Source: Actinomycetes bacterium (GTDB lineage: Bacteria > Actinomycetota > Actinomycetes > Streptosporangiales > Streptosporangiaceae). Taken from it: a DNA stretch of 44,025 nt. The DNA lies in the NCBI GenBank assembly GCA_025964615.1, contig JAOPYM010000168.1, positions 1-44,025 of the forward strand, written 5' to 3'. The notes below the pieces were generated by a model. That model was not told the DNA's origin. It made no database searches and saw only the letters and a program-made list of their open reading frames with translations. Position numbers and translations under genes: made by a program. Shown here piece after piece: positions 16,433 to 19,684 of this stretch; position 1 is the first letter of the stretch; every line of letters starts with the position of its first letter.

Positions 16433-17095
16433 TCAGCGTGCGGACCGGCGCCGGCGGCCGACCATCGTGAGGTTCAGGGCGCCCACGACGCCCGCAAGGC
16501 CGGCCGCACCGGCCACCCAGACGACATGCTGCGGCTGGTACACCTGCGCGGCCATCGGTGAGACCAGATGCGTCTCGGTGAGTACGCTACTGGCCGGCAC
16601 CTGGTCGGCCACCTGCGGAACCTGGGGGAGCAGCCCTGGCAGCTGCGCGGTGGTGCTACCCGCGGTGTACGGCTGGACCGAGCCGGGCAGCGAGGCTGGG
16701 CCGGTGAGGCCGGTCGATCCGGTCCGGGTCGTCGTCGTGCCGGTCCTGGCGCTGCTCTTCGTGGCCGGCGGCGGGGTCTTCGCCGTCGGGTTCGGCGTGG
16801 GCGGCTTCACCTGCGGTGGCGGGGTCTGCGGCTGGTTCTGGTGCTTGAGCTTGTCGATCTGCTTCTGCAGGTTGTTGGCGGCCTCCCTGAGCTGGCAGGC
16901 GATGCTGGCGATGGTGCTCTTCGGGTCATGTCCCTTCGCGCAGTGCGTGGCCGCGTCCGCCGGCCCCGCTCCGCCGAGCAGGAACGCGAAGGCGCCCACC
17001 GTGACCGCCGAGGTGACTCCAAGCCGTCGAAACCGTCGCTGGTCGGGCATTCTGCTCCTTATGCCGACATGCCCCGATGTGTTCTTCGACACCAT
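16433..17095 (-). CDS. Secreted/membrane-anchored Pro/Thr-rich protein, function unknown
   Basis: Signal peptide-like RRFRRLGVTSAVTVGAFAFLLGGAGPADAATHCAKG, short coiled-coil-like region, Pro/Thr-rich stalk, C-terminal TM VVWVAGAAGLAGVVGALNLTMV followed by GRRRRSAR. Confidence 0.7.
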   Translation of the reverse strand: MVSKNTSGHVGIRSRMPDQRRFRRLGVTSAVTVGAFAFLLGGAGPADAATHCAKGHDPKSTIASIACQLREAANNLQKQIDKLKHQNQPQTPPPQVKPPTPNPTAKTPPPATKSSARTGTTTTRTGSTGLTGPASLPGSVQPYTAGSTTAQLPGLLPQVPQVADQVPASSVLTETHLVSPMAAQVYQPQHVVWVAGAAGLAGVVGALNLTMVGRRRRSAR

Positions 17096-17178: not shown

Positions 17179-18753
17179 TCAGCCCTCGCGCAGTAGCCCG
17201 GCCAGGCGCGTCCGCCGCTCCGGTGCCCTGACCTCCCGTACGGCCTTCGCCAGCGCGGGACCGGCCGCGTGCACCACCGACAGGTGCGCCAGCGCCCGGC
17301 CGGTCGCGGTGACGACCAGCGGCCGCGACAGGAGCGGACCCGAGTCCGGCGTCAGGACCGCGACGACCGCCGGCCAGCGGGTGCCCGCAGACCGCTGGAC
17401 CGTGATCGCCCAGCCGTGCCTGAGCCGGGACAGCAGCGCAGCCGGCACGGTCGCCGTTCCTGCGGGGAAGGAGATCTCCAGGCCGCCGTCGGCCACGACG
17501 GCGCCCACCACTCCGGTCTCACCGGTGGCCGCCTGCGGCAGTGCCGAGGTCACCACGATCCGGTCGCCCACGTCGAACCCGCCGTGCGCTCCCGGGCCCG
17601 GGTTCAGCCGCTCCTTCAGGGCCGCGTTGAGCGCGGCGGTCCCCGCGGCCCCGCCCTGCGCGGGAGTGAGCACCTGGACGTCGTCGACGGCGATGCCGAG
17701 CGCCCTGGGGATCGAGTCGGTGACCAGTTGCACGACCCGGTACACCGCCTCCTGCGGGTCCTTCGCCGCGATCAGCACCACCTCGCGGTTCGGGGCGTCG
17801 ACGGGCGGCAGCTCACCGAGCCGTACGGCCGCGCCAAGGCGTTCAAGCGGCCCGCCCGGCTCGGCCGGGCAGTCCACGACCGGTACCGTGCCGGCGGCGA
17901 TCACGTCGGCGAGCACCTGGCCCGGCATGATCGGCGGCAGCCCGGCGGGGTCGCCCGCCAGCACCAGGTGCGTGCCGTCCGCGCACGCCTCCACCAGCGC
18001 CGCGGCCAGCTCCACGTCAAGCCCGCCGGCGTCGGTGACCACGACGATCCCGGCCTCAAGCGGCCACTGCTCGCCGCGGGCGTACGTCACCCCGCCCGGC
18101 GTCTCGCGGGCCTCAAGGAGCCGGTGCAGGGAGATCCCGCCGGCCCGGTCCGTCAGGGTCGCCACGACCGCGCCCTGCTCGCGCAGCGCCGACACGGCCG
18201 CCGCGGTGCCGGGCCCGGTGAGCACGGCCACGCCGCGCTCGGAACCCTCCCGGGTCTGCGCGGTGGCCAAGAGCCGCATGATGCCCTCGGCGACCGCCTC
18301 CTCGGCCATCGCCCAGCGTTCGAGCGACAGGACCTCGTCGGGCTCCTTCTCGAAGTCCTCGGGGTCCTCGATCGCGTACCCGAGGATCTGCCCCTCGTCG
18401 AGGGCGCCGCGCATCGACTGGACGGGATCGGGCACCTTGAGCGCCTTGAGCCGGGTCACCGCCTCGGGCACCGGCAGGACCGTGTGCCCGTGCCGCGCGG
18501 CCTGCATCAGCAGGTGGGTGACCAGGGCACGGCCACGGCGTTCGTCCCCCGGATCGGTGCCATCGCCGAGGATCTGGCGCGCGAAGTGATCGGCCTGTTC
18601 CGGCCGTACCCCCGGCAGGGCGAGCAGCTGCCACGGATCGGCGCGCAACTGGTCGGCGGCGTCCGGACCGAAGTGCCCGGCCACTGCGGGCGCCAGCGTC
18701 GCGGGCACGCCGCCGCCGGCGAGCAGCGCAGTGAGCTCGGTCAGGTCAGACAT
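17179..18753 (-). CDS. RecD2-like helix-hairpin-helix protein with degenerate helicase motifs
   Basis: Likely start at 18753 (MSDLTELTALLAGGG). Aligns by eye with the RecD2 core (LHRLLE, LAGDPAGLPPIMPGQVL, DDVQVLTPAQGGAAGTAALNAALKERLNP, FDVGDRIVVT, WAITVQRSAGTRWPAVV), but Walker A reads LTGPGTAAAV and Walker B VVTDAGGLD. Confidence 0.8.
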   Translation of the reverse strand: MSDLTELTALLAGGGVPATLAPAVAGHFGPDAADQLRADPWQLLALPGVRPEQADHFARQILGDGTDPGDERRGRALVTHLLMQAARHGHTVLPVPEAVTRLKALKVPDPVQSMRGALDEGQILGYAIEDPEDFEKEPDEVLSLERWAMAEEAVAEGIMRLLATAQTREGSERGVAVLTGPGTAAAVSALREQGAVVATLTDRAGGISLHRLLEARETPGGVTYARGEQWPLEAGIVVVTDAGGLDVELAAALVEACADGTHLVLAGDPAGLPPIMPGQVLADVIAAGTVPVVDCPAEPGGPLERLGAAVRLGELPPVDAPNREVVLIAAKDPQEAVYRVVQLVTDSIPRALGIAVDDVQVLTPAQGGAAGTAALNAALKERLNPGPGAHGGFDVGDRIVVTSALPQAATGETGVVGAVVADGGLEISFPAGTATVPAALLSRLRHGWAITVQRSAGTRWPAVVAVLTPDSGPLLSRPLVVTATGRALAHLSVVHAAGPALAKAVREVRAPERRTRLAGLLREG

Positions 18754-19684
18754 CGGATACGTCGTCGAGCGCGTCACGGATCTCCTGGGGAAGGGTGAGG
18801 TCCTCGGCCTCCAGATTGGCGAGGAGCTGTGCGGTGGTACGGGCGCCGATGATCGGTGCGGCGACGCCCGGCTGGTCACGGACCCAGCTGAGCGCGACGG
18901 CCATCGGCGAGACGCCGAGCCCGTCGGCCGCGGTCGCGACCGACTCCACGATGCGGGCGCTCGGCTCGTTCAGATAGGGCTGCACGAACTCGGCCAGGTA
19001 GGGCCCGGCGGCCCGTGAGTCGGCCGGTATACCGGTACGGTACTTGCCGGTGAGCACCCCGCGGCCCAGCGGGGACCAGGGCAGGATCCCCACCCCGGCG
19101 TCCAGCGCGGCAGGCACCAGCTCCCGCTCGACGTCGCGGCAGAGCAGCGAGTACTCCAGCTGCGCGCACACGATGGGCGTACGGCCCGGCCACGCGCGCT
19201 GCCAGGTCGCCGCCGTCGCCAGCTGCCAGCCCGCGTAGTTGGATACCCCCGCGTACCGCGCCCGGCCCGAGCGGACCGCCTCGTCCACCGCCGACAGGGT
19301 CTCCTCGAGCGGGGTGTACGGGTCGTAGGCGTGCAGCTGCCACAGGTCGACATGGTCCATGCCGAGCCGGCCGAGGGACTCGTCCAACGCGCCCAGCAGG
19401 TGACGCCGGGAGGCGTCGTAGCGCCCGTCCGGGGTGATGACCGACTTCGTGGTGATGATGAGTTCGTCGCGCGGCACCACCCCGCGGACCAGCCGGCCGA
19501 GAATGAGCTCGCTGGTGCCGTCGCAGTACACGTCGGCGGTGTCGACCAGGTTCCCCCCGGCGTCCACGAACGCCGTCAGCTGTGCGGCGGCCTCGTCGGG
19601 GCCGGTGTCCTGGCCCCACGTCATGGTGCCCAGGCCCAGTCGTGACACCGAGAGCCCGCTCCGCCCAAGGTGACGCTGTCTCAT
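18746..19684 (-). CDS. Aldo/keto reductase
   Basis: MRQRHLGRSGLSVSRLGLGTMTWG, DTADVYCDGTSELILGR, GVSNYAGWQLA, GVGILPWSPLGRGVLTGKYR. Start at 19684 is better than the ORF-track start at 19849. Confidence 0.9.
   Translation of the reverse strand: MRQRHLGRSGLSVSRLGLGTMTWGQDTGPDEAAAQLTAFVDAGGNLVDTADVYCDGTSELILGRLVRGVVPRDELIITTKSVITPDGRYDASRRHLLGALDESLGRLGMDHVDLWQLHAYDPYTPLEETLSAVDEAVRSGRARYAGVSNYAGWQLATAATWQRAWPGRTPIVCAQLEYSLLCRDVERELVPAALDAGVGILPWSPLGRGVLTGKYRTGIPADSRAAGPYLAEFVQPYLNEPSARIVESVATAADGLGVSPMAVALSWVRDQPGVAAPIIGARTTAQLLANLEAEDLTLPQEIRDALDDVSDV

Follow-up and report, generated by a model that had tools for sequence, protein, structure and literature searches.

Can a helicase gene whose motor has been lost remain in use, and if so, for what? 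This question is raised by one gene in a 44,025-nucleotide stretch of an actinomycete contig (the window). We consider it probable that the gene is an old pseudohelicase, an ortholog of an actinobacterial RecD2-like SF1B helicase, that is kept as a non-catalytic static binder. Described pseudohelicases are few; in the open literature searched, the term is used in only three papers. Here, related genera carry intact or dead orthologs (with and without the Walker lysine, respectively) at one and the same locus, and in Streptomyces the dead form seems close to universal. Since the locus is shared and Streptomyces is genetically tractable, the role of a motorless helicase fold is directly testable. 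The gene also carries a warning for annotation, as it matches RecD helicase domains despite missing the residues for ATP hydrolysis.

Domains, fold and catalytic motifs

The gene and its parts, all on the minus strand, are as follows.

17179..18753, minus strand: pseudohelicase gene, 524 amino acids, identified by its open reading frame, family matches, fold match and ortholog alignment
18478..18753, minus strand: HHH_RecD2 domain, residues 1-92 (Pfam PF14490, 50 bits)
18193..18222, minus strand: old Walker A, LTGPGTAAAV, residues 178-187; Lys and Ser missing when aligned with GGPGTGKS orthologs
18016..18048, minus strand: old Walker B, VVVTDAGGLD, residues 236-246; the Asp-Glu pair is Thr-Asp in the alignment
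17929..17955, minus strand: old motif III, GDPAGLPP, residues 267-275; Gln271 replaced by Gly in the alignment
17560..17718, minus strand: strongly conserved domain 2A block, residues 346-398, DSIPRALGI ... LNPGPGAHGGFDVGDR; many invariant residues
17368..17409, minus strand: old motif V, residues 449-462, with TVQRSAGTRWP; the alignment shows His453 replaced by Gln, Gln456 by Ala and Glu459 by Arg
17284..17325, minus strand: old motif VI, residues 477-490; partially kept in the alignment, with Arg486 present

The reading frame is intact and spans exactly 17179-18753, from an ATG at 18753 to a stop codon ending at 17179. An earlier note on this DNA had given the same span and called the frame intact, and both points stood; it had left the strand, which is minus, unstated. 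A plus-strand reading of the interval was rejected because of its stop codons, which appear already at the sixth codon.

In a Pfam scan, residues 3-92 matched HHH_RecD2 (PF14490) with 50 bits against a cut-off of 27, which shows that a RecD2-type HHH domain is present, and AAA_30 and UvrD_C_2 gave weak matches. The TIGR01448 (RecD2) score was 181 bits and did not reach the curated equivalog cut-off of 500. The best PDB sequence match was Deinococcus radiodurans RecD2 (3e1s, E=4e-17). An AlphaFold model built with 19 relatives (pLDDT 75.5, pTM 0.62, with low confidence near the old ATP site at residues 214-231 and 310-321) had three RecD2 structures, 3gp8, 3gpl and 3e1s, as its top PDB fold matches, followed by RecD of RecBCD; the closest, 3gp8, matched with an E of 6e-26 and TM scores of 0.70/0.67. 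The window protein is thus predicted to have the overall RecD2 fold. Its kinship with RecD2, which the earlier note had put forward and had proposed to check by AlphaFold comparison, is borne out by both the alignment and the fold search.

RecD2, represented by the D. radiodurans structures 3e1s and 3gp8 and by the TIGR01448 family, is an SF1B DNA helicase of 5'-3' polarity. The window protein has in common with it the overall fold, the HHH domain, the SH3-like region and the helicase core. Unlike RecD2, the window protein lacks the catalytic residues of Walker A, Walker B and motifs III-V as well as the N-terminal OB domain; the Pfam scan found no OB_YrrC match in it, whereas the canonical RecD2 of the same genome has one. 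Alignment with intact orthologs showed that the replacements read earlier in Walker A, Walker B, motif III and motif V were correct, and the motif IV Arg-Gln (YRQ or HRQ in intact orthologs), absent from that earlier list, is also lost. A functional P-loop elsewhere in the protein, which the earlier note had named as grounds for abandoning its reading, was looked for. No A/GxxxxGK[S/T] pattern was found elsewhere in the window protein, and a hidden second P-loop was therefore rejected. The Walker lysine mutant of RecD2, K336A, has essentially no hydrolysis (PMC3757182), and because of this we strongly infer from the motifs that the window protein has lost ATPase activity.

Orthologs and their shared locus

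We scored 20 catalytic sites in motifs I-VI on an alignment of 156 orthologs. Thirty-seven had the Walker lysine and the other motifs (the full-length sequences among them kept all remaining motifs), 119 lacked the lysine, and none was intermediate; these counts leave out five canonical RecD2 proteins and include a few partial sequences at contig ends. Dead orthologs rarely retained the Walker serine (3%), the Walker B Asp (3%) or the motif V Gln (10%) and Glu (1%), and retained the motif III Gln in 29%, the motif IV Arg in 24% and the motif V His in 29%. In motif V, 76% of the dead copies have R459, which none of the intact ones has. What remains differs by group, as expected after motor death: the Streptomyces-like genus has kept the motif IV Arg and the motif V His, genus g74 the RQ of motif V (HRQ in several), and Nocardiopsis the motif III Gln. 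We also observed that, in Nocardiopsis (e.g. L046, L050), the old motif Ia is followed by long Ala/Glu/Gly-rich insertions of very variable length, which indicate that the old ATP site evolves freely.

Absence of the Walker lysine from 119 orthologs means that its loss is not due to chance, misassembly or a single decaying allele. The earlier note had reasoned that orthologs with intact motifs might expose this copy as a lone decaying allele or a misassembly. Intact orthologs do exist, yet the window copy belongs to a large group of dead copies that are under selection and that share the loss of the Walker lysine and, to differing extents, the other K/DE/Q/H losses for which that note had suggested searching. 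With 118 further dead orthologs, both explanations were rejected.

The breadth of the gene varied across actinomycetes. When matches at or below 1e-105 are counted, 100 of the 251 genomes sampled from the window's family have an ortholog, which is intact in four (G010, G016, G031, G105); about 60% of the sampled family genomes are without the gene, so it is dispensable there. Dead copies are found throughout that family (Actinomadura, Thermomonospora, Nocardiopsis and others), Streptomonospora being a further named genus with a dead copy, and the named intact copy is from Frankia (L049, sequence partly masked). Group f20/g56 had an ortholog in 117 of 121 genomes, the remaining four being 78-95% complete, and all 28 of the g56 sequences examined were dead. 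Genus g56 is almost certainly Streptomyces, and the dead form is apparently kept in nearly every Streptomyces. Intact orthologs (e.g. L005, L010, L013 and Frankia L049) were 50-61% identical to the window protein over matched stretches and have the same gene neighborhood; unlike the window protein, they keep all catalytic motifs. Their TIGR01448 scores (399-415 bits) are likewise below the cut-off of 500, which makes the intact orthologs, too, a side family of RecD2-like proteins.

No internal stops occurred among the matches listed. In the single-contig genome G020, the ortholog is split over two frames (L017 and L159) and is whole in the congener G099, which points to a sequencing error or to decay of this copy; another ortholog, L054, is also broken into two frames. 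In a record titled Glycomyces fuscus (L042), the gene shares about 90% identity with those of Nocardiopsis, and the record is probably mislabelled. In Actinomadura sp. WMMA1423, the same locus lies at both ends of the chromosome record, once frame-shifted (L036 and L059), which looks like an untrimmed assembly overlap.

The neighbors of the gene in the window include the following.

18746..19684, minus strand: aldo/keto reductase gene, directly upstream (Pfam Aldo_ket_red, 224 bits)
16433-17095, minus strand: 220-amino-acid open reading frame without a Pfam match, kept at the same place in relatives L032, L035 and L117
19761-20399, plus strand: 212-amino-acid open reading frame, flanked by the aldo/keto reductase gene and the phosphatase gene; no Pfam match

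The aldo/keto reductase gene overlaps the start of the pseudohelicase gene, by 8 nt in the window and by 4 nt in one g56 locus. The same-strand reductase lies directly upstream at most dead loci and at the intact loci of families f2, f14, f16 and f50. To judge from its sequence, the product of the 220-residue frame is likely secreted or located in the membrane. Many relatives keep the 212-residue frame, with 43-63% identity. Whether the helicase gene is intact (L166) or dead, TldD, FabG and FabI genes lie on one side of the locus and the genes for a histidine phosphatase and DUF3090 on the opposite side. Because this neighborhood is common to intact and dead loci, the dead gene is an ortholog in place rather than a spare duplicate. 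Duplication followed by decay is further disfavored by the single chromosomal place that intact and dead copies share, and no genome had both forms of the ortholog among the matches listed. Assignment to a defense system was rejected, as the PADLOC matches reflect general RecD/helicase similarity and are weaker than those of an intact ortholog.

Selection and the origin of the motor loss

The dead copies are under purifying selection. Nei-Gojobori dN/dS ranged from 0.19 to 0.53 across 112 close dead pairs (median 0.29), with a median of 0.23 across 21 intact pairs; pooled over disjoint pairs, dead copies had a value of 0.231 and intact copies one of 0.152. These values, well under 1, agree with the view of the earlier note that the gene is retained rather than decaying, for which it had proposed this measure. 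The difference between dead and intact copies was uneven along the protein. From intact to dead, dN/dS rose from 0.085 to 0.231 in residues 171-285 (motifs I-III), from 0.052 to 0.150 in residues 441-500 (motifs V-VI) and from 0.138 to 0.379 in the SH3 region. It held in residues 346-398 (0.165 intact versus 0.154 dead) and rose modestly in the HHH domain (0.173 to 0.235), where column entropy was equal (1.39 intact, 1.40 dead). The shift therefore indicates that constraint was relaxed mainly at the motor and held elsewhere, and this unevenness is the main evidence that the dead protein remains in use.

A single origin of the motor loss, with same-locus transfer or lineage sorting, is favored. 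In a tree from all non-motif columns, the dead copies formed one clade with support of 100/100, and with motif columns removed, monophyly of the window's family was rejected (p-AU 0.0001), as was that of its order (p 0.003). Six derived residues (G63, P68, V264, A275, P302 and R459) are common to the Streptomyces-like genus and the other dead copies. These results speak against several separate losses, in the Streptomyces-like genus, in family f10 and in one or more Streptosporangiaceae lineages, to which we give a smaller but still considerable probability. Such losses would fit the gene tree, which places dead copies from other orders within the order of the window, contrary to taxonomy, a conflict that could also be long-branch pull among relaxed sequences. 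They would fit, too, the result from equally constrained columns only, in which dead-clade support fell to 78/92 and family monophyly was not rejected (p-AU 0.106).

It is also conceivable, though less likely than not, that the near-universal Streptomyces protein is an old pseudohelicase with a single origin from an active RecD2-like enzyme, that it took on a new non-catalytic function marked by shared derived residues including the motif V Glu-to-Arg change, and that it later passed from one actinomycete order to another, settling at the same locus.

Possible roles of the motorless protein

Under the static-binder reading, the ATP-binding and hydrolysis motifs would have been dismantled in an ancestor of the pseudohelicase, with the HHH domain, helicase core fold and domain 2A block meanwhile preserved by selection. 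The protein would be unable to bind and hydrolyze ATP in the manner of RecD2 and so would neither translocate nor unwind. Its HHH domain and old ssDNA groove may hold an intermediate of DNA repair or replication; alternatively, its preserved surfaces may recruit another repair protein. A non-enzymatic job is probable, since the dead version is kept under selection in many actinomycetes.

Precedents for such reuse have been described. PriA of D. radiodurans is a pseudohelicase that still binds DNA and contacts DnaB; in that case too, the motifs of a bacterial DNA helicase decayed within a single lineage and the gene persisted (PMC4504706). PriA belongs to SF2, and its DNA binding and DnaB contact have been demonstrated; for the RecD2-type protein in the window, a binding function is predicted. 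RecC and AddB contain inactivated helicase domains, with an SF1 fold but without the motifs, that were reused for DNA binding (PMC4824097). These are UvrD-like domains in large helicase-nuclease complexes; the window holds a stand-alone gene with a RecD2/SF1B fold, whose identified neighbors are FabG, FabI, aldo/keto reductase, phosphatase and DUF3090 genes, and, unlike for RecC and AddB, intact orthologs occupy the same locus in related genera. Pseudohelicases are a known kind. The RecD2-like dead family seems to be new to the open literature: searches there on RecD-like Streptomyces proteins and on degenerate helicase motifs turned up nothing about it, although a subscription paper may hold an earlier description.

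What the static binder would hold is less certain. R72, R73, R339 and K380 are invariant, and the HHH domain is conserved as in intact orthologs. The mean net charge of the HHH domain, however, is +1.6 in intact and -0.5 in dead copies (-4.0 in the window protein), and median pI declines from 5.32 to 4.85. This loss of positive charge weakens the case for plain DNA binding by the HHH domain, and with the drop in pI and the acidic surface it makes a protein-binding scaffold a serious rival. The dead fold might then be a protein-interaction module without a DNA role, holding a partner and perhaps tied to the co-oriented aldo/keto reductase, whose gene overlaps it in most dead loci. We regard this as somewhat unlikely, given the conserved HHH domain and the four invariant basic residues. 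The reductase is also missing upstream in many Nocardiopsis loci and present beside intact helicases, which indicates that the pairing predates motor loss.

It is improbable that the dead copy pairs with and regulates canonical RecD2 as a partner or brake. On a different contig (C191), the genome of the window does carry an intact canonical RecD2 as a separate gene (TIGR01448, 844 bits), and nearly all g56 genomes carry both genes. Dependence of the dead copy on canonical RecD2 is nevertheless disfavored by four genomes (G088, G121, G126 and G143, 98-100% complete) in which the dead copy is present but canonical RecD2 has no match.

Slow decay of a pseudogene left open by chance, which the lost catalytic sites, the somewhat higher dN/dS than in intact orthologs, the many family genera without the gene and the split frames in G020 and L054 might suggest, is very improbable given the pooled dN/dS of 0.23, the lack of internal stops among the matches listed, retained blocks that are constrained as in intact copies, and the near-universal presence of the gene in the Streptomyces-like genus.
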